Shown here one piece after another: positions 14,500-30,859 of a stretch of 32,053 nucleotides of DNA. This stretch comes from Gammaproteobacteria bacterium. Lineage in GTDB: Bacteria > Pseudomonadota > Gammaproteobacteria > JACCYU01. Under the pieces are notes generated by a model. The model ran no database searches. It saw nothing but the letters and a program-made list of their open reading frames with translations, and was not told where the DNA came from. Location: NCBI GenBank assembly GCA_013695765.1, contig JACCZW010000134.1, positions 1 through 32,053 on the forward strand. Direction: 5' to 3'. Each line of letters begins with the position of its first letter. The stretch's first letter is position 1. The translations under genes and the position numbers were made by a program.

Positions 14500-15084
14500 G
14501 TGAACGCGAACCCCGTGCACCATTGGTGGTTGCCCTTAAGTCTAGTGACATTATCCGGCCTGTTGCAGTTCGGTATGCCGGCGACCGCACAGTGGCTGCG
14601 ATATGAACCCGCCATGATCCACAGCAGCTTTGAGATCTGGCGGCTGTTTGGCGCGCATTTCGTGCACCTGAGCTGGCGTCATTATCTGCTGAACGCCGTT
14701 GCATTGCTGGCGATTTCGGCGCTGTACGCACCCGCGCCCGGCGTGCTCGCATGGCGGCTTTGCGTCAGCGCCGCCGCGGTGAGTCTCGGTTTGTTGTGGT
14801 TCAACCTGTCGCTGGGCTGGTATGTGGGCATGTCAGGCATCCTGCATGGCCTGCTGGTCGCCGGCAGCGTGCGCGACTGTTTTGCGCGCAACGTTAGCGG
14901 CGCCCTCATGTTGCTGGCGGTGACTGGAAAATTGATCTGGGAGCAGATCAACGGACCCATGCCGGGCAGCGAGGCCGCGGCGGGCGGCCGGGTCATCGTG
15001 GACGCGCATCTTTATGGCGCCCTCGGTGGTGTCGTCGCACTGTGTGTCGAAACCATCTTCGCGCGATGGACGGGACGGCGTTGA
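14500..15084 (+). CDS. rrtA: rhombosortase (GlyGly-CTERM processing rhomboid protease)
   Basis: A 194-residue polytopic intramembrane serine protease. Rhomboid hallmarks are visible: HYLLN (H61-N65, the HxxxN motif), YVGMSGILHG with nucleophile S112, and VDAHLYGALGG with catalytic H170. The short length and lack of extra domains match rhombosortases, which cut the C-terminal GlyGly-CTERM signal of T2SS-exported proteins. It starts at GTG 14500. It is the only plus-strand gene inside the gsp locus, divergent from gspG and convergent with the S8 protease, whose 3' end it overlaps by 73 nt (15012-15084). That protease carries a GlyGly-CTERM-like end and is the obvious substrate. Whether there are other substrates in the genome cannot be seen here. 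Confidence 0.92.
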   Translation: MNANPVHHWWLPLSLVTLSGLLQFGMPATAQWLRYEPAMIHSSFEIWRLFGAHFVHLSWRHYLLNAVALLAISALYAPAPGVLAWRLCVSAAAVSLGLLWFNLSLGWYVGMSGILHGLLVAGSVRDCFARNVSGALMLLAVTGKLIWEQINGPMPGSEAAAGGRVIVDAHLYGALGGVVALCVETIFARWTGRR

Positions 15085-17003
15085 CACAACAAACCGCTAA
15101 GCCCGCCCAGCAGCATGCCGCACAGCATGAAATCCGCGGCGCCACCGCCACCGTCAGCGATGGCGGCGCCATCACCATTGTCAGGGGCGCCGCCACCCTG
15201 CGTGGAGAGGCTTGTGTTCAGCGCATAACGCCCAGTGGTGCTGATGCTGAAGCCTTCCACCGCGACGAAATAGGTGCCCGCGACCAGGCTGTTGTCGAGG
15301 GCGAAATTCAGATTTACACCTGCATCGTTCTCGCCTATCGACGGGACGATATTGTCTTGCTGGGTCAGCAATCGTCCGTTTGCATCGAACAGGTAGCCAT
15401 AGGTATCGGTGCTGCCGGTGGTGGCGACGCGCACGTTACCGGCGGCCGGCAGCGATAGCCGGTACACGTCGAACTGGTAAGCCCCTTTGAGCGCACCGCC
15501 TTGCGCGCTTCCTAGCACCAGCGGCGCCGCCGTCGCGAATGCGGCGCGCAGGCCGTTATCATCAGCCGCCGTCGCGATGTCACCGGTCGCCACGGCGCGC
15601 ACCGCCGCCGCGGCGTCGAGAAAGCCGGCCCCGCAAAGTGGGTCATCGCAGCGCTGACCCGTAACTGTCGCGGGAAACGGGCGCGCGGTGGCGCGCAAGA
15701 TCGCGATCAGTTGTCGCGGTGTCAGGTTGTTGTTGAGAGACAGCATCAGCGAGGCCACACCCGCCACCAGTGGCGCGGAGAAGCTCGTGCCAGAGATCGT
15801 TTCGTAACGGTCTCCGCCGGGAAGCGGCGCCTGCACGCCTCGATTCGCCGCACTCAACAGATCCACACCCGGTGCGATCAGCCCGATTTTCGCGCCGAAA
15901 TTACTGAACGACACCAGCGCGCCTTCGCGCGTCGAGGCGGCGACCGGCAATACGCCCTGACAGCTGGACGGACTGGTGCGCAGCGCGTTGATTGCTTCAT
16001 TGCCGGCCGCGGCCACCACCACCGCACCGGTCGCGATGATGTCGTCCACGGCGGCCTGTTCGGACGCCAGGCAGGTTCCCGGTCCGCCAACGCTCAGGTT
16101 GATGACCCGCGCCGGGTTGGGATTTCGCGGGATGCCTGGTACGGGCAGTCCCGCCGCCCAGCGTGCCGCATCGATGATGTCCGAGGCGTATCCGCCGCAT
16201 CTGCCCAGCGCGCGCACCGGCAGAATGCGCGCGCTCCAGTCAACGCCGGCGATGCCCTGGCCATTGTTGGTTACGGCGCCGATAAGGCTCGCCACGCGCG
16301 TGCCGTGCCAGCCGCTGGGCCGAATCTGCGGCGGGGTATCGGGGCCACAGGCGCCGGCGGTGGCGCCGTCGCCAGGATCGGCCGGATCTGGATCGCGGCC
16401 GTCACCGTCGTTGGCGTTTAAGAAACCGCCCCCGGGATCCTCCGAGACAAAGTCGTAACCGGGTGCGAGCCGCCCGTCAATGTCGATATGTTCGGGTCTG
16501 ATGCCGGAATCGATGACCGCCACGGTCACATCCGTGCCGCCGGTGGTCGTATCCCAGGCCGCGGGCGCATTGATAGCCGCGCGCTCAATAGCCGCTGGTC
16601 GCAGATAATACTGGCCATTGAACCGCGGATCGTTCGGGACGAGAGCCAGGTCATACCGAACATCGGGATCGGCGTATTCGATTTCCGGATGGCGGGACCA
16701 GTCTCGCGCCATGGCGGCGATTGCTCCCGGCGCCATCGGACGATCCATCGTAATCAGATGTGCGCCGCCGGACATTTCGCGCTGGATAGTCATGTTCATG
16801 CCGGTCTGTGCCGCCATGGCCGTAACGCGCCGCGTCGCGGGGACCGTTTTGCCGGTCGAATTGCGAAATTTGACGATCAGGCGCGCCGCGCCTGGCTCTA
16901 TTGATTTACCGCGCAACGTCGCCGCGGTGCCTTGTTGCAATTGCAAGGCGAAGCTTAATGCGGCGATTAGCGCTATCGCACCTGAGGTCACTTGTTTGTC
17001 CAT
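15012..17003 (-). CDS. secreted S8 (subtilisin-type) protease with GlyGly-CTERM signal
   Basis: A 663-residue exoprotease precursor. Order of parts: Sec signal peptide (to about residue 28, ending GTAA), an I9-like prodomain (about 41-117, RLIVKF to YADPDVRY), and the S8 catalytic domain with D165 (AVIDSG), H233 (GWHGTRVASLIG) and S407 (SGTSFSAPLVAG). A PPC-like beta domain (about 505-600) and a Gly/Asp-rich linker follow, then the sorting signal GGGGAADFMLCGMLLGGLSG and a basic QRRPVHRAK patch. An extra 14-residue Ser/Thr/Pro-rich tail follows the basic patch, which is unusual. The frame can be opened at TTG 17033, but the ATG at 17003 has AGGA upstream and gives a clean signal peptide. It lies 26 nt after a prodomain-like lipoprotein gene and presumably leaves through the surrounding T2SS before rhombosortase trimming. 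Confidence 0.93.
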   Translation of the reverse strand: MDKQVTSGAIALIAALSFALQLQQGTAATLRGKSIEPGAARLIVKFRNSTGKTVPATRRVTAMAAQTGMNMTIQREMSGGAHLITMDRPMAPGAIAAMARDWSRHPEIEYADPDVRYDLALVPNDPRFNGQYYLRPAAIERAAINAPAAWDTTTGGTDVTVAVIDSGIRPEHIDIDGRLAPGYDFVSEDPGGGFLNANDGDGRDPDPADPGDGATAGACGPDTPPQIRPSGWHGTRVASLIGAVTNNGQGIAGVDWSARILPVRALGRCGGYASDIIDAARWAAGLPVPGIPRNPNPARVINLSVGGPGTCLASEQAAVDDIIATGAVVVAAAGNEAINALRTSPSSCQGVLPVAASTREGALVSFSNFGAKIGLIAPGVDLLSAANRGVQAPLPGGDRYETISGTSFSAPLVAGVASLMLSLNNNLTPRQLIAILRATARPFPATVTGQRCDDPLCGAGFLDAAAAVRAVATGDIATAADDNGLRAAFATAAPLVLGSAQGGALKGAYQFDVYRLSLPAAGNVRVATTGSTDTYGYLFDANGRLLTQQDNIVPSIGENDAGVNLNFALDNSLVAGTYFVAVEGFSISTTGRYALNTSLSTQGGGAPDNGDGAAIADGGGGAADFMLCGMLLGGLSGLLCQRRPVHRAKMVSTHSATTPPRAP

Positions 17004-17029
17004 AAAATGGTTGTCCTGGTAAATCGAAA

Positions 17030-17410
17030 TCAATAGCTAAGTCTGCGATCGGCTTCCGCGTAGTCCACTTCCGGCCGCCGGTTGAGTTTGCGCAAAATGA
17101 CCGCGCGCTGCCTTTTATTCATCCGTCCGCTGTAAAGGTGCACGCCGCCGGACATCAGCCGTGCATGCCGCAGCTTGACCGGCGCGCCGAGGGGCTGGAT
17201 TAGCTTTAACTTATCCGGCGCGGACCGCGCGGCATCGATGAACTTGACGATTATACGCATCGCGGGCGGCCGCGGATCGGCGGGCCTGGCGTGCGTACAG
17301 GCAAGCCCCAGCACGGCCACGAACAGCAGGCATGAACCGCCGCCCCATGATCTGGCCAGACGGGTCGCGACCGAACCATCCGCGGCGCGGGCATGACGCG
17401 CGCCCTGCAT
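17030..17410 (-). CDS. stand-alone prodomain-like lipoprotein, candidate inhibitor/chaperone of the S8 protease
   Basis: A 126-residue protein: a basic N-terminus, a hydrophobic helix (SCLLFVAVLGLAC) ending in a lipobox with C38, then one domain at about 51-126. That domain parallels the protease's own prodomain next door: RIIVKF matches RLIVKF, LMSGGVHLY matches EMSGGAHLI, and RRPEVDYAEADRRLSY matches RHPEIEYADPDVRYDL. It ends where the prodomain would join the catalytic domain. The ATG at 17410 lies one base after the gspF stop, so it is coupled to the gsp genes, and the protease start follows 26 nt after its stop. Known I9-type prodomains fold and inhibit their cognate subtilase; a membrane-tethered free copy guarding the protease in the periplasm is my inference. 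I do not recognise a named family. Confidence 0.72.
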   Translation of the reverse strand: MQGARHARAADGSVATRLARSWGGGSCLLFVAVLGLACTHARPADPRPPAMRIIVKFIDAARSAPDKLKLIQPLGAPVKLRHARLMSGGVHLYSGRMNKRQRAVILRKLNRRPEVDYAEADRRLSY

Positions 17411-17411
17411 C

Positions 17412-18629
17412 TCATTGCACCAGCTGATTGAGTTCGAAGATCGGCAGCAGGATCGCCAGCACGATAATCAGCACCAGCACGCCCATCACCAGAATCAGCA
17501 CCGGTTCGAACAATGTCATGATCGCGCTTATCGACGTCTGCAACTCGCGCTCCTGGTGCTCCGCGGCGCGTTCCAGCATGTCTTGCAGCCTGCCGCTGGA
17601 CTCGCCGCTCGCGATCAGATGCAAGGTCATTGGCGGGAACAGCCCGGAGGTCTCCAGCGAACTGCTGATCGATGCGCCTTCGCGCACGTTGGCGGCGGCG
17701 TTGAGCACGGCCTGGCGCATGGGAATGTGCGGGATGACCTGTGCGGCGATGCGCAGGGCGTCGAGCACCGGCACGCCGCTGCCGACGAGAATACTCAAGG
17801 TGCGCGCGAAACGGGCGGTGTTGAGGCCGCGGATCAGCCGCGAGATCAGCGGCAGACTGAGCATGAAATGATGCACGCGCTGGCGAAAGTGATCGTTGCG
17901 CATGCTGCGCGTAAACATATACACGCCCAGGCCGATAAGGATGATCGCGTACAGGCCATACGCCTTGGTCGCGTCGCTGACCGCGATCAGCGCACGGGTG
18001 AGAAACGGCAATTCCTGACCCAGATGTTCGAACACCTGCACGACCTGCGGTACTACGTAAGTCAGCAGGCCGCCCGCCACCAGCACGGCGATGGTGGTGA
18101 GGATCAACGGGTAAAACATCGCCATGTTGATGCGCTGCTGCATTTCCTGACGGCTTTCGGCGTAATCGGCTAGACGGTCCAGCACCGCGTCCAGATGCCC
18201 GGATTGCTCGCCGGCGGCCACGGTGGCGCGGTACAGCTCGGGGAAGGCGGCCGGGAATTCGCTTAAGCCCGATTCCAGGGTATGGCCCTCGTTGACTCTG
18301 GCGCGCACAGCCAGAATGATGCGCTTGATGCGCGGCTTGGACGATTGTTTGGCGGTGGTGGCGAGCGACTCCTCAAGCGGTGTGCCGGAACGCACCAGGG
18401 TGGCCAGCTGGCGGGTCATCAGCGCCAGTTCGCTCGCGTTCAGGCCGCCGCCTGAGAAACGTTGCCGCAGATTACCCTGTGTCTTGTCGCTCGCGACCTG
18501 TTTGATATCCAGCGGATTCAGGCCGCGTTCGCGCAGTTCCTGACGCGCCTGGCGGGCGGTATCGCCTTCGATAACGCCCGCCAGTTCGCGCCCCGCGATA
18601 TTCAGTGCCTTGTATTCGAACGCTGGCAT
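17412..18629 (-). CDS. gspF: type II secretion inner-membrane platform protein GspF
   Basis: A 405-residue protein with two T2SSF domains. The N-terminus MPAFEYKALNIAGRELAGVI is diagnostic. Membrane helices lie near residues 170-192 (LILTTIAVLVAGGLLTYVVP), 220-240 and 375-398 (VLILVMGVLVLIIVLAILLP). The repeated motif PLEESLATTAKQSSKPRIKR and its second copy near LDALRIAAQVIPHIPMRQAV mark the two cytoplasmic four-helix domains. GspF is the core of the inner-membrane platform on which GspE drives pseudopilus growth. It is separated from gspE by 143 nt holding an inverted repeat, which is unusual since E and F are normally adjacent. Confidence 0.95.
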   Translation of the reverse strand: MPAFEYKALNIAGRELAGVIEGDTARQARQELRERGLNPLDIKQVASDKTQGNLRQRFSGGGLNASELALMTRQLATLVRSGTPLEESLATTAKQSSKPRIKRIILAVRARVNEGHTLESGLSEFPAAFPELYRATVAAGEQSGHLDAVLDRLADYAESRQEMQQRINMAMFYPLILTTIAVLVAGGLLTYVVPQVVQVFEHLGQELPFLTRALIAVSDATKAYGLYAIILIGLGVYMFTRSMRNDHFRQRVHHFMLSLPLISRLIRGLNTARFARTLSILVGSGVPVLDALRIAAQVIPHIPMRQAVLNAAANVREGASISSSLETSGLFPPMTLHLIASGESSGRLQDMLERAAEHQERELQTSISAIMTLFEPVLILVMGVLVLIIVLAILLPIFELNQLVQ

Positions 18630-18640
18630 GTTTTGGTTAA

Positions 18641-18766
18641 TTGCGCAAAGGCGCCAAGATGCAAAGATAATGCTGAACGCAGTGACCGCGGCAGCAATTC
18701 ATGTTTGATCCAGCCAGGTGAGCCATGAATGATAAGATCCCTTTGCGTCCTTGCGCCTTCGCGCGA
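18641..18766. repeat. inverted-repeat element between gspE and gspF
   Basis: The left arm, 18641-18668 (TTGCGCAAAGGCGCCAAGAT and 8 more bases), matches with few changes the reverse complement of the right arm, 18738-18766 (plus-strand core CTTTGCGTCCTTGCGCCTTC). A shorter inverted pair, ATTCATG/CATGAAT, lies between them. The CGCAAAGRCGCAAAG-like composition resembles dispersed intergenic repeats of proteobacteria. It could fold as a long hairpin in the gsp mRNA and tune levels of the downstream genes, or be an inserted miniature element. Confidence 0.6.
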
Positions 18767-18772
18767 ACAGAC

Positions 18773-20317
18773 TCAGTCTTCGCGCGTCACGCGCAGCACT
18801 TCTTCAAGCGTGGTCAAGCCTTTGAGCACCAGCCGCACGCCGTCGTTACGGATGCTGGGCCCTAAGGTGCGCGCGTGACGCTCCAGCTTTTGCTCCGAAC
18901 TCAGATCGTGGATCATGCTGCGCAGAGTCTCGTCCAGCACCACGGCCTCGTAGATACCGGTACGGCCCGCGTAACCACTAGCGTTGCAGGCCGCGCAGCC
19001 ACGCGGCGAATAGATTGTGGGCTTCTCGTCGCCCGCGAGCTTCATGTGTGCGCGTAATTGTTCGTATTCCGTGGCGGTAGCGGGATGCGCGTGTTTGCAG
19101 GCGGGGCACAGTACGCGCACAAGGCGCTGGGCGATTACGCCGACCAGACTGGACGAGAGAAGAAACGGCTCCACGCCCATGTCGCGCAGGCGGGTCAGCG
19201 CGCCAATCGCGGTGTTGGTGTGCAGCGTCGAGAACACCAGATGCCCCGTAAGACTCGCCTGCACGGCAATCTGAGCGGTTTCCAGATCGCGGATCTCGCC
19301 GACCATGACGATATCCGGGTCCTGTCGCAGAATGGCGCGCAGGCCGCGGGCGAACGTCATTTCGACCTTGACGTTGACCTGCGTCTGGCCGATGCCGTCG
19401 ATGAAGTATTCGATCGGGTCTTCGACGGTCAGGATATTGCGCTGCCGGTCGTTCAGCATGCCAAGTGCCGCGTATAACGTGGTGGTCTTGCCCGAGCCGG
19501 TGGGCCCGGTTACGAGGATAATGCCGTGGGGTTTTTGAATTATTTGCCTGACCTTATCGTGAATCTCCGGTGCCATGCCCAGATGCCCGAGGTCCAGCCG
19601 GCCGGCCTGTTTGTCCAGCAACCGAAGCACCACTCTCTCGCCGTAGCCGGAGGGCAGGGTGGAGACGCGCACATCGACCGCGCGGCCCGCGACCCGCAAC
19701 GAGATGCGGCCGTCCTGCGGCACCCGCTTCTCGGCGATATCCAGCTTCGCCATAACCTTGATGCGGGACACGATCAGGGTGGCCATTTTGCGCGGCGGCT
19801 GGAGGATTTCGCGCAGCATGCCATCGACTCGAAAGCGCACCCACAACGTGGTCTCGAAAGTCTCGATATGGATATCCGAGGCGTTTTCCTTGATCGCCTC
19901 GGTCAGCAGTGCGTTGATCAGCCGGATGATGGGGGCGTCGTCGTTGGCCTCCATCAGGTCTTCGGTCTCGGGCAGCGATTCGGCCAGTTGATTCAAATCG
20001 AGGTTGTCGCCGAGATCCTCCATCATGGCCCGCGCGGCGCCCGAGCCGGCGTCGTAGATCTGCGTCAGCAAGGTATCGAATTCCGTCTCGCTGACCGCCG
20101 TCAAAGCCAGCGGTTTGCCCGTGAAACGCCGTACTTCCGCGATGACCGCGGCGCGCACGCCGGGCTTACGGTACAGGGTCACCCGCCCATTAATTTCATC
20201 GCCGACCAGCACGCCGTGCCGCTTGGAGAAACCGTACGCGGGGCGGCGCACGCCGCCGATCACGGGCGGCGGGGTATTTACAAGATCGGCCAGCGGCTGC
20301 AGATCGGTTTCGGTCAT
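18773..20317 (-). CDS. gspE: type II secretion ATPase GspE
   Basis: A 514-residue hexameric cytoplasmic ATPase of the T2SS. N1E/N2E domains occupy roughly residues 1-130, then comes the secretion ATPase core. Visible motifs are Walker A ([10 protein letters not shown], near 270), Asp box and Walker B ([16 protein letters not shown], near 335), and the His box [16 protein letters not shown]. The zinc-binding tetracysteine CPAC...CAAC lies at about 405-445. All catalytic elements are intact. It docks on the GspL cytoplasmic domain and powers pseudopilin assembly through GspF. Its ATG overlaps the gspD stop by 4 nt. Confidence 0.96.
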
Positions 20318-22359
20318 TGAAATTCTCCTCCGACGTCGGGCGTCATCTCCATCAGACGGTTGTGCTGACGAACGGGTTTGGGAATCTGCGTGATCAGTTC
20401 GTCTAGATCCGGCAGGCGCGCGGCGCTGGCTTTTCCGAAACCGCGGCGCTGATTGACCTCGATCTGGCGCGCGCGCAGATAATCGTATTTGCTGTTGGTG
20501 TAAGCGGTCGCCAGCTTGGGATCCCTCAATATAACCGGATGAATGAACACCATCAGACTGCGTTCAGCCTCGTTGGTGCTGTCGCTGCGAAACAGGTAAC
20601 CCAGCAATGGAATGTCGCCCAGTATCGGCACTTTCTGTTGATTGTCGGTAACGCTGTCCTCGATCAGACCGCCCAGCACCAAGGTCTGCCCATCTTCTAC
20701 CAGCACATTGGTCTTGATCGTGCGTTTGTTGGTAATGAGGTCCGCGGCGTCTTCCAGGTTGGTCTCTGCAATGGACGACGATTCCTGTTCGATGTCCAGC
20801 CGGATGGTGTCGCCCTCGTTGACCTGCGGGGTGATGCGCAAGGTGATGCCGACATCCTGGCGCTCGATGGTCTGGAACGGATCGACGCCGCCGGTCACCT
20901 GTCCGGTATCGACACCGGTGCTGAAATTGCCGGTGATAAATGGCACGTTCTGCGCTACAACTACTTCGGCCTCTTCGTTGTCCAGGGTCACGAGCGTCGG
21001 GGTGGAGAGGATATTCGTGGCCGCGTCGCTCGCCAGCGCCTGGAGAATCAGGCCGAACCGGGTGCCGCCGCTGCGGTCCGCGGCGCCCAGCAACAGGCCA
21101 TTGCCAAAGGACAGCGGGCTACTGATGATCTGCGCCAGGGTGCGTCCCGCACCGCTTAAGCTGGACGCGATCACGGGTGCGCCGCCGTCGACTTCATCGG
21201 GCACCACGGCGAATTGCATGCCCAGCTGGTTTGCGAGCGTTGTCGAAACTTCCGCGATAACCGCCTCGACCAGTACCTGAGCGCGACGTATGTCCAACTG
21301 CCTTATCACGCTTTGAATACTGGCGAATTCGTCTGGAGGTGCTGTGATGACCAGGGCGTTGTTGCGCTCGTCCGCCTGGATATCCAGCTCTTCGTTTTCG
21401 CCACTGCTGGAACTCGTGCTGGTCGTAGTCGTCGTTGCGATGGCCGACTGAGATTCTCCGGCCGCCGCCTGTTCCTGCTGCTGCTCGGCGACCCCCAGCA
21501 GAATCGGTGCTAAGTCTTCGGCCTTGGCGTAGTTCAGAAATACAACCTGCGTGTCGCCGCCGGTTTCCAGCGGCGTATCCAGATGCGCGATCAGACCGCG
21601 CAGGCGCAGGCGCGCCTTTTCCTGCCCGCTTAACAGAATACTATTGGTGCGATCATCCGCCACCAGCAGGGGTTGTCCCGGCAGGGTCCCCCCGGACAGC
21701 TGGGTATCTCTTTGTTGCATCGCGGTGATTACGCGCACGATCTCGCTGGCCGCGGCGTGTTCCAGTCGGATCACTTCTATAGTATCGCTCACCGGATAAT
21801 CCATGCGTTCCACGATTTGCTGGATGCGGTCGATGTTGGCGGCGCGATCGGAAATGACCAGCGTGTTGTTCGCGGTATACGCCGCCAGATGTCCCTGCTG
21901 TGGAACCAGCGGCCGCAGGATGGGTACGAGCTGCGCGGCCGAAATACTGTCGACCGAGATGACGCGCGTGATCAACTCGTCGCCCTGACCGCTGTCAGTA
22001 AGCACCGCGGGACCTTGTTTGGCGGTGATATCCGGTACGATCTTGACGACCTCGCCCACCGGTACGGCGGCGTATCCGTGCACCTGCAGCACCGACAGAA
22101 AGACCTGATAGACCTCGTCCTCGTTCATCGGCTTGGCGGAAATCACCGTGATCTTCGCCTTGACTCTGGGGTCTACGACAAAATTTGTGCCTGTCACCTC
22201 GGCGACCGTCTCGATCAGCGAGCGCAGGTCAGCATCCTTGAGGTTAAGCATAACGCCTTCCTGCGCGCGGACCGTCAACGCGCTGGCCATCATTATCAGC
22301 CCCAGCAGCAATGGGCGCCGCAACCGCCGCATATTTAACAAGCGAGGTGGTCGATTCAC
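20314..22359 (-). CDS. gspD: type II secretion outer-membrane secretin GspD
   Basis: A 681-residue precursor. A Sec signal peptide ([16 protein letters not shown], cut near residue 32) leads to the N0 domain ([20 protein letters not shown]), N1-N3 repeats, and the secretin pore domain ([20 protein letters not shown] through [20 protein letters not shown]). A low-complexity Gln/Ala/Ser/Thr linker (about 293-323, including [14 protein letters not shown]) interrupts the N3 region, as in many GspD. GTG 22359 is chosen as the start because GGGAG lies 5 nt before it; an upstream TTG (22371) and an internal ATG (22332) are weaker. GspD forms the outer-membrane channel through which folded cargo, such as the S8 protease, exits. 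No pilotin gene is seen nearby. Confidence 0.95.
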
Positions 22360-22364
22360 TCGGT

Positions 22365-22369
22365 CTCCC
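22365..22369 (-). promoter_or_regulatory. ribosome binding site deciding the gspD start
   Basis: GGGAG on the minus strand lies 5 nt upstream of GTG 22359. The alternative ATG at 22332 has no purine-rich sequence at the right distance, and the TTG at 22371 lies upstream of this site. Confidence 0.6.
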
Positions 22370-22567
22370 AAAATTGATTCATTCGCCGTGACGTGGATCG
22401 GATCGCTGCCAGCACGGTCTGTGCTATCGAAAGGTCGCCAGCAGCGATGCTCAGGCGTCGTACTCTAAGTTCGCGTCCCCATAAAGTCCAAAAATTGAGG
22501 TGTATAAATTCAGGCCGCCATGCGAGAACATGCCTTTGCATTATTCTCGGTAAGTAAACTTTTCAGG

Positions 22568-23521
22568 TTATCGCAGACTGTGTTCAACCGTTATTTCACT
22601 GCCGTCACGCAGCAGGGTAACGCTTACCTGTTCTGCCTTGACCAAATCCTGCAGGGCCAGCAAGCCCTTGTCCGGGCGATCGATAGCGATCCCGTTGACG
22701 GACGTTACGATATCGCCTTCCTGCAAGCCAATTTGCTCGAATAGCTGCGTGTTGCCCTGCGGGGTCAGCTGGTAACCCAGGAACTGTCCGTTCTCTGTGG
22801 CTGGCGCGGCGCGGATCATGTCGCCGAGTCGGCCGGGATCCTGCAAAATCTGCTGGCGCACCGCGCCCAGATCGACGCCAGACCCGCCGTCAGGCAGATA
22901 ATCGGAGCCGGCTGCCGCACTTGCTGCGTCGGGCATCGGCTGGTCGTAGCCCGCGGCGTAAGCCTGTGCGGCGTCCGTATAGCCTTCGGTGGCGTTTGCC
23001 TTTAGGGCCCCCGCCTTTTTGCCATACAGGTTCAATCGGCTGCGGGGCAGACGCAGCGTTTCCATGCGCTGGTTGTGTTCCAGAATGACCCGATCGACAT
23101 AAACCGCCTTGAGTACGCCGCCACCGACGATGGCGTCGCCCAGCCGGTAGAATTTTTCGTTGCTTCCATCACTGGCGATAATGGCGAGTGCCTGATCGTT
23201 GCCCGTCGCATAAATGCCGCGCAATGCCAGGTTTAGACGCGTGTCCGGAGCATCCACCAGGCGCGGCTGGGCCTCACGCGCCTCGCCGAACAAATGCAGG
23301 TTCGCGATTGCCAGGGCGTAGTCCGGGCGCTCTGTGGCGGTGTCGGGCAAATCGACATTCTGCGTTGCCGCCGGCGCCCAGACCTCGGGCGCGGGCGCGA
23401 ACACGCGCCAGCCCAGATTCGCCAGGCTGTAGGCTATGAGCACGGTCAGCGCCGCGGCTGCCACACCGGGCAGTCCGGCGAGCAGCCACGATGCGCCTCG
23501 TTTGCCATTTATAAGCGCCAT
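22568..23521 (-). CDS. gspC: type II secretion protein GspC (PDZ type)
   Basis: A 317-residue inner-membrane protein: a short cytoplasmic N-terminus, one membrane helix (about residues 14-36), a periplasmic homology region (YALAIANLHLFGEA, LNLALRGIYATGNDQALAII) that contacts the N0 domain of GspD, and a C-terminal PDZ domain (QIGLQEGDIVTSVNGIAIDR). PDZ-type GspC helps cargo recognition. It is the first gene of the gsp locus; the promoter should lie in 23522-23700. A 208-nt gap to the gspD start is larger than other spacings in the locus and holds nothing I recognise. Confidence 0.93.
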   Translation of the reverse strand: MALINGKRGASWLLAGLPGVAAAALTVLIAYSLANLGWRVFAPAPEVWAPAATQNVDLPDTATERPDYALAIANLHLFGEAREAQPRLVDAPDTRLNLALRGIYATGNDQALAIIASDGSNEKFYRLGDAIVGGGVLKAVYVDRVILEHNQRMETLRLPRSRLNLYGKKAGALKANATEGYTDAAQAYAAGYDQPMPDAASAAAGSDYLPDGGSGVDLGAVRQQILQDPGRLGDMIRAAPATENGQFLGYQLTPQGNTQLFEQIGLQEGDIVTSVNGIAIDRPDKGLLALQDLVKAEQVSVTLLRDGSEITVEHSLR

Positions 23522-28480: not shown

Positions 28481-29458
28481 TTAAAGCAGATCCTCGACTG
28501 CCTTGCGCTCCTCGCGCAGTTCGCGTTCGGTCGCCTGCATCTTCTTGGTGCTGAATTCATCGATGGCGAGGTCTTGCACGATTGTATAGTGGCCGTTGGC
28601 GCAGGTGACCGGGTAGGAATAAAGAATGCCGGGTGCGATGCCGTAGCTGCCGTCGGACGGGATGCCCATGCTGACCCAGTCGTCTTTCGGCGTACCATGC
28701 ACCCAGGTCTTGATGTGATCGATCGCCGCAGAGGCCGCGGAAGCTGCGGACGACGCGCCGCGCGCCTTGATAATTGCGGCGCCGCGTTGCTGCACGGTTG
28801 GCATGAATTCGTCGCGATACCAGTCCTGCGCCACCAGTTCTTTCGCCGGTTTGCCCTTGACGGTGCAGTGGCTGATGTCCGGGTATTGACTGGCCGAGTG
28901 GTTGCCCCAGACGATCATGTGCCTGATGTGATTGACGTGGGTGGCGGTTTTTTGCGCCAGCTGGCTGAGCGCCCGATTGTGATCCAGCCGCATCATGCAG
29001 GTAAACTGGCGCCGATCGAGGTCCGGCGCGTTGGCCGCGGCGATCAGCGCATTGGTGTTGGCCGGATTGCCGACCACGATGACCTTGACGTCCGGCGAAG
29101 CCTGATCATTGATCGCCTTGCCCTGCGGGCCGAAAATCTTTCCGTTCGCGCTCAGCAGGTCGGCGCGCTCCATACCGGGACCGCGCGGCTTTGATCCCAC
29201 CAGCATCACGTAGTCGGCACCGTCGAAACCTTCGTTGGTGTCCGCCGTGGCAATAATTTCTTCGAGCAGCGGAAACGCGCAATCGCGCAACTCCATTTCG
29301 ACCCCTTGCAGAGCCTTGAGCGCGGGCTCGATCTCGATGAGTTGCAGAATCACCGGCTGGTCCGGGCCCAGCATATCGCCAGCTGCGATACGAAACGCCA
29401 GCGCATAGCCTATGTTGCCGGCCGTGCCGGTAATGGCGACGCGTGCGGGTTTTTTCAT
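28481..29458 (-). CDS. mdh: malate dehydrogenase
   Basis: A 325-residue NAD-dependent enzyme of the TCA cycle (malate to oxaloacetate), of the longer bacterial type found in many beta- and gammaproteobacteria. The Rossmann motif [18 protein letters not shown] is at residues 10-27. [16 protein letters not shown] holds the substrate-binding arginines (R92, R98), and [13 protein letters not shown] holds catalytic H187. A ribosome binding site (AGGTGA) precedes the ATG at 29458. It ends 83 bp from the convergent dusA. Confidence 0.95.
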
Positions 29459-29649
29459 TGGATCACCTCATGCTTTTTAACTTTGTAACGAATGTGCCGT
29501 CGAATGGGAGTAACTCAAGAACGAACCGCTGTGGTTCGCGGGCAAGACCAACTCGCCTGCCAGGCAACATAAACGCTAGGTTACGATCGCGCAACACCTG
29601 TGGCTGCGTTAAGCGGGATGCCGCGGATGATGCGGCTTATCGATACGCA
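29459..29649. other. upstream region of mdh, no gene seen
   Basis: About 190 bases between the mdh start and the terminator-like hairpin at 29650. It holds the mdh ribosome binding site near 29463-29468. No further coding similarity was seen on either strand and no clear promoter boxes were found. Confidence 0.4.
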
Positions 29650-29683
29650 TAAAAAACCGGTGTGCACCAGTGCGCCGCACCGG
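29650..29683 (-). terminator. Rho-independent terminator on the minus strand
   Basis: Read on the minus strand, CCGGTG...CACCGG (29683-29657) with GC-rich inner pairing is followed directly by TTTTTT (29656-29651). It lies just past the end of the catalase remnant and points the right way to have been that gene's terminator. It would also insulate mdh from upstream read-through. Confidence 0.65.
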
Positions 29684-29709
29684 TCTACGTCAACGGCGCG
29701 GAGTAGACG

Positions 29710-29856
29710 CTATGCGGCCTGCATCTCATCCATGCGGATGCCCAGTCTTGACGTGATACTTGCAAAACACGCGTTCGTCTTGATCATTGATCAGGCTGAA
29801 GGTGTGACTGGAAAATTCCCCATGGCGATGATGCCACGGTTAAGTTGTATAGTCAT
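29710..29856 (-). pseudogene. catalase (KatA-type) remnant
   Basis: On the minus strand, HHRHGEFSSHTFSLIND continuing into QDERVFCKYHVKTG matches the heme-catalase core, in which RHMNGYGSHTF and CKFHYKTDQG are the conserved forms. Just upstream in another frame, MTIQLNRGI resembles the preceding LFSDRGIP strand. Downstream, the frame must shift again to read GIRMDEMQAA before TAG 29712-29710. About 45 codons of a roughly 480-codon gene survive, with at least two frameshifts and no start. It is divergent from oxyR, a standard place for a peroxide-defence gene. Matches are from memory of the family and were not aligned by program. Confidence 0.7.
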
Positions 29857-29929
29857 ATTGGCGCGGCCATTTATCAAATAGAATAAACGCCTCCTGTTGA
29901 TCAAAGAACTCAAACAAACGGAGGAGTCA

Positions 29930-30859
29930 ATGACGTTACAGGAGTTGCGCTATCTCGTAGCGTTGGCCGACGAAGGGCACTTCGCCCGGGCGGCGGAACG
30001 CTGTCACGTCGGTCAGCCGACTTTAAGCACACAGCTGAAAAAGCTGGAGGGATTCTTAGGCGTTGCCCTGTTCGAACGCGGCAAGCGGCATGTGATCCCG
30101 ACTCCGCTGGGTGAGGCTATCATCGCGCAGGCGCGCATCGTGCTGGAAGAGGCGGGCAAGCTACGCCAGCTCGCGGACCACGGCCAAGACCCGATGCGGG
30201 GCCCGTTTCGTCTGGGCATCATTCCCACCCTGGGTCCTTATCTATTGCCGCACCTGCTGCCGATGATTCACGCGACTTATCCGGAGCTGCGCCTGTTGCT
30301 GCGCGAGGATCTCACGCGCAATCTGCTGGCGCAGTTGCGCGCGGGTAAACTCGATGCGCTGCTGCTGGCGCTGCCGATAATTCGCGACGCTCTGGAGGTC
30401 GTGCCACTATTCGAGGAGCCGTTCGTGGTGGCCATGCCGGTCGATCACGCGCTCGCGAGACGCCGGCAGATACCGCTGCATGAGCTGCATCAGCACGACG
30501 TATTGCTGCTCGAAGAGGGCCACTGTCTGCGCGAGCAGGCGCTGGATATCTGCGGCACGAACCGCAGCGACACAGGTGAGGAATTCAAGGCGACGAGCCT
30601 GGAAACCTTGCGCCAGATGGTGGCGGCCGGCGCCGGCTGTACGTTATTGCCGGCGCTGGCGGCCTTGCCTGCCGCCGGCCTGCCGATGAAAGCGATGATC
30701 GAAATCCGCCCGTTCGCGGAGCCCGTGCCGACACGTATAATCGGTCTCGCCTGGCGGCGGAGCTTTCCGCGCGTGAAGATTGTTCGTAATCTTCAGCAGA
30801 TCGCGCACGATCACCTGCCGGAAGGCACGCTCAGGATTGATTCAAAGCGCCGCCATTGA
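29930..30859 (+). CDS. oxyR: hydrogen peroxide-responsive regulator OxyR
   Basis: A 309-residue LysR-type transcription factor. The N-terminal winged helix-turn-helix covers residues 1-60 (ELRYLVALADEGHFARAAER). The redox switch cysteines are at C199 and C208 in EEGHCLREQALDIC, the same numbers as in E. coli OxyR. A frame from TTG 29897 exists, but GGAGGAG (29920-29926) and family length favour the ATG at 29930. It activates catalase and peroxiredoxin genes on peroxide oxidation. The gene usually found beside it is here only a remnant, so its targets must be elsewhere. The SDR gene follows 42 nt downstream on the same strand. Confidence 0.95.
   Translation: MTLQELRYLVALADEGHFARAAERCHVGQPTLSTQLKKLEGFLGVALFERGKRHVIPTPLGEAIIAQARIVLEEAGKLRQLADHGQDPMRGPFRLGIIPTLGPYLLPHLLPMIHATYPELRLLLREDLTRNLLAQLRAGKLDALLLALPIIRDALEVVPLFEEPFVVAMPVDHALARRRQIPLHELHQHDVLLLEEGHCLREQALDICGTNRSDTGEEFKATSLETLRQMVAAGAGCTLLPALAALPAAGLPMKAMIEIRPFAEPVPTRIIGLAWRRSFPRVKIVRNLQQIAHDHLPEGTLRIDSKRRH

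Follow-up and report, generated by a model that had tools for sequence, protein, structure and literature searches.

The window analysed here is the whole stretch of 32,053 nucleotides covering positions 1 to 32,053 of contig JACCZW010000134.1 from a Gammaproteobacteria bacterium (genome G000; 3.13 Mb in 164 contigs). Between its malate dehydrogenase gene mdh (28481–29458, minus strand) and oxyR (29930–30859, plus strand) lies a catalase remnant on the minus strand (29741–29836). It comprises about 32 codons (WHHRHGEFSSHTFSLINDQDERVFCKYHVKTG), derived from the central part of the catalase domain, and no start codon precedes it. A terminator-like hairpin with a T-run (29656–29682, minus strand) is located on the side expected for the 3′ end of a lost catalase gene, and the spacer between remnant and oxyR (29837–29929) carries no clear copy of a block at –51 that is conserved in katG-bearing relatives. 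As the sequence-only reading of this DNA had stated, oxyR itself is intact: it encodes 309 amino acids from the ATG at 29930, its redox cysteines C199 and C208 are both invariant in a seven-sequence alignment, and its best NCBIfam match is the OxyR equivalog (295 bits, under the cut-off of 329). Elsewhere in the window (15012–23521, minus strand), type II secretion genes (of the GspC, GspD, GspE and GspF types) adjoin a gene for a subtilase-family protease.

The catalase origin of the minus-strand stretch divergent from oxyR, also proposed by that earlier reading, was borne out by several searches. A six-frame search of the whole genome with the PF00199 profile returned 29741–29839 at 21 bits (E=1.9e-4, under the cut-off), and the same profile scored the corresponding 36-residue peptide at 24.9 bits (cut-off 25; E=1.3e-5) over profile positions 184–212. 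A phmmer search of the PDB with the remnant peptide retrieved 20 catalase sequences of solved structure at E-values of 1 or below (best 5.1e-5), and a profile built from 14 catalases scored the remnant at 30.3 bits. In a frame-tolerant alignment to this 14-catalase profile, the remnant reached 51.5, while 200 dinucleotide-preserving shuffles averaged 14.7 (sd 1.6) with a maximum of 22.5, so that none of the 200 was as good. The profile, phmmer and frame-tolerant results thus identify a true catalase fragment.

This fragment is nevertheless the remnant of a catalase gene and not a catalase, since it covers only positions 184–212 of the 383 in PF00199. Both gene ends are absent, and neither a full-length ORF nor the N-terminal distal-histidine region or the C-terminal heme-ligand tyrosine region was found. 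Instead of the previously described "about 45 codons split by frameshifts", the remnant is a single open frame (29741–29836) within a 37-codon stretch bounded by two stops. In the remainder of the gap (29460–29735) the best frame-tolerant score was 16.2, about that of shuffles, and a look-alike of the C-terminal catalase end noticed there by eye was rejected as its score was at chance level. For a dead gene, it should be noted, 32 codons without a stop represent good preservation, which is a point against a reading of decay. The hairpin, correctly placed by the sequence-only reading, had a z-score of –2.64 (4/200 shuffles as good), and 29440–29960 contained two terminator-like sites vs. 0.6 expected; it could serve some other transcript.

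In a second genome of the same genus (G001), the gene order around the mdh–oxyR gap, mdh included, is kept and OxyR is 94% identical to that of the window. The gap itself has diverged, differs in length and aligns poorly with many gaps, and the catalase piece of the remnant is absent from this syntenic site. The G001 counterpart of the hairpin was not above shuffles (z –0.13). Two minus-strand frames in the G001 gap match the catalase C-terminus weakly but colinearly, with a frame-tolerant score of 21.6 (2/200 shuffles as good) and no match in the locus profile scan; if this weak resemblance is real, the two species may have retained different pieces of one gene. G001 also carries a second oxyR-like gene in two frames with a break near residue 99 (L045:3866-4829; G001:C245), for which the window's genome has no second DNA match.

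The surroundings of oxyR were compared across 80 loci fetched by OxyR alignment, in which upstream counts are lower bounds since some loci end there. An intact divergent catalase close to oxyR was present in at least seven of the 80 (L146, L150, L170, L175, L177, L192 and L194), with the catalase match starting 86–127 nt from oxyR; all seven are alphaproteobacterial and fall elsewhere in the OxyR tree. Two members of the class have a catalase further away (873 nt in G228 and 1884 nt in G127), and katG was found upstream of oxyR in at least 21 of the 80 loci. Downstream of oxyR, the catalase profile used for these loci detected no catalase within up to 4.5 kb in 115 loci (a few places counted twice). 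As to whether the closest relatives keep an intact kat gene at this site, none was found: G001 has no intact catalase there and L130, the locus whose OxyR is closest beyond the genus, has neither catalase nor katG upstream, yet broken catalases do occur in sister lineages. Genome G002 has no close OxyR (best E 2.7e-14).

These broken catalases accompany katG. In L131 (Betaproteobacteria bacterium FW602_bin.15), catalase profile positions 11–91 precede katG and 461–499 follow it; in G042, positions 12–64 precede and 417–475 follow; and in G092, katG comes first, followed by positions 98–499 with a frameshift. A Bradyrhizobiaceae locus (L190) shows a weak match to positions 95–127 before katG (iE=7.4e-4). 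Stretches with katG in or beside a broken monofunctional catalase divergent from oxyR were recorded at L131:3191-5850, L046:2577-5321 and L109:1503-5153. After the katG stop codon, L131 and G092 share similar DNA over about 80 bases, and G042 over about the first 35 (compared by eye), which is compatible with the insertion of a single katG cassette near profile position 91–98 of the catalase. In another family of the class, a catalase gene interrupted by stops and changes of frame (L120; G029:C79:10251-11118) is apparently a separate decaying catalase.

In the OxyR tree (84 sequences), G000 and G001 join L130 (99/94), and these three are sister (94/96) to a group with the L131, G042, G092 and Thiobacillus loci; since its bootstrap was unsettled and its root placed at the midpoint, this tree serves as a guide only. 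The KatG tree places L131 and G042 as sisters (99/98) and G092 with Thiobacillus. Because it splits G092 from the other two, a single event for these three loci rests on the shared DNA after katG and the similar break points. The L190 KatG joins a Flavobacteriales sequence, so that a single origin of all cases of katG over a catalase is not supported for this locus, which may represent a separate case of katG over katA.

The control region was examined for traces of the lost arrangement. An OxyR-type operator was not distinguishable in the gap of either same-genus genome: the best match to an OxyR-site consensus covered 9/16 positions in both, equal to shuffles (means 9.0 and 8.9), and the window's candidate was rejected. 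The katG-bearing relatives have in common the block that lies at –51 relative to the oxyR start. Built from six loci and tested on 11 others with 300 shuffles each, it was matched by 0/300 shuffles in the held-out L131, G042, L136 and L175, by 1/300 in L140, by 9/300 in L146 and L177, and by 51/300 in L139. In G000 the block is worn at best (7/300 shuffles as good), and it is absent from G001 (38/300) and L130 (59/300). A tie between this block and the divergent gene is suggestive only; the pattern fits a shared control region that may have decayed along with the lost partner gene, with a mixed picture at other loci.

Peroxide defence elsewhere in the genome was surveyed as well. Across the whole genome, PF00199 matched two places, i.e., the remnant and an intact catalase of 502 amino acids on contig C107 (E=2.0e-186). 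The latter adjoins a Fur-family gene; this pair recurs in G001, where the catalase is 96% identical to that of C107. The Fur-family gene has no NCBIfam match above cut-off (best PerR, 55.9 bits vs. 200). There were no katG matches in the window's genome, which rules out katG as the replacement there. Nine AhpC/TSA family matches were found, eight of which were typed: one thiol peroxidase over cut-off (178.6 bits vs. 123), one DsbE over cut-off, one protein closest to peroxiredoxins and four resembling thiol-disulfide oxidoreductases (all five under cut-off), and one without a match. With its intact catalase and thiol peroxidase, the genome is equipped against peroxide, and the reduced peroxide exposure suggested by the sequence-only reading is rejected as unsupported; its other suggestion, replacement by another peroxidase, is supported by the C107 catalase and thiol peroxidase as far as sequence goes.

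Taken together, the stretch is very probably a non-coding leftover of a katA-type monofunctional catalase gene once divergent from oxyR, i.e., the residue of an oxyR–katA pair lost through deletion. Although the match is short, chance resemblance can be considered refuted, given a score far past the shuffle maximum. Retention of the stretch for a function, as a small protein or an RNA derived from catalase sequence, is very improbable: the codons are open and the terminator-like hairpin follows, yet in frame there is no ATG, GTG or TTG from the preceding stop up to a GTG two thirds in, and the stretch is not conserved in the poorly aligning G001 region. Most likely, the scrap itself does nothing.

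Arrival by recombination, for instance through copying of part of the C107 catalase, with no whole gene ever present here, would accommodate the lack of an intact divergent catalase in the closest relatives. This is improbable, however, as strand and position agree with the divergent catalases of relatives and sister lineages have broken catalases at the same site. Moreover, the remnant is identical to the C107 catalase at 16/29 residues and to catalases of other genomes at up to 19/29, so that it does not stem from recent copying of the former. Somewhat less improbable, but still unlikely, is that katG first landed within or on top of the catalase, the state seen in L131, G042 and G092, and was later lost as well, leaving just a piece of the catalase's downstream part. 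Sister lineages in which katG lies within or adjacent to a broken catalase lend this some plausibility, but the genome has no katG match, the locus scan found no katG at this site, and the branch of G000, G001 and L130 lies outside the katG-bearing OxyR group.

Under the deletion of an oxyR–katA pair, an ancestor would have carried oxyR divergent from katA. This ancestral katA is inferred from remnants, since all intact divergent catalases set close to oxyR in this sample are from alphaproteobacterial loci and the nearest relatives lack one. katA would then have decayed mainly through large deletions, which in the window's species would have removed about 180 N-terminal residues as well as the portion that followed the remnant. 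The window's branch may thus have deleted katA, and another branch would have received katG over it. Peroxide would now be handled by the C107 catalase beside the Fur-family regulator and by thiol peroxidases, and the C107 catalase probably made the oxyR-adjacent katA dispensable; the order of events at the site is likewise our reconstruction. Of the previously proposed loss of a neighbouring OxyR target, the gene remnant stands, and OxyR control of the lost gene is presumed from the divergent layout in relatives.

A joint reading of these loci, to which we assign an even chance, is that the position divergent from oxyR is a slot for catalase exchange, with katG entering katA in one lineage and katA being deleted in its sister. 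A katG cassette would have landed in the resident katA at about profile positions 91–98 in a lineage with Thiobacillus and other betaproteobacteria among its relatives, and would have taken over the divergent promoter region, with the flanking katA ends eroding unequally (L131, G042 and G092). The sister lineage (the window's genus) would have deleted katA, relying on the Fur-linked catalase elsewhere. On its own, the remnant is an ordinary dead gene resulting from ordinary gene turnover. With its relatives, it forms a small record of catalase swapping at a fixed site by the peroxide sensor, in which intermediate states are still readable; this exchange pattern beside oxyR is the only point of wider interest, and a modest one. 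In a literature search at the level of titles and abstract openings, plus passages of PMC8017148 and PMC8859910, no paper on katG replacing a catalase at oxyR came up.

Regarding known systems, the C107 catalase and its Fur-family neighbour may resemble CatR/PerR–catalase pairs. The remnant itself matches monofunctional heme catalases (PF00199, small-subunit KatA type) in the segment SHTF..IN...ER...K.H.KT, but differs from them in being a dead fragment that lacks most of the domain. According to PMC8859910, katA is clustered with oxyR in Paraburkholderia xenovorans. Compared to divergent oxyR–katA and oxyR–katG pairs, the remnant occupies the same place beside oxyR in the same orientation, whereas here the partner gene has been lost and a scrap remains.
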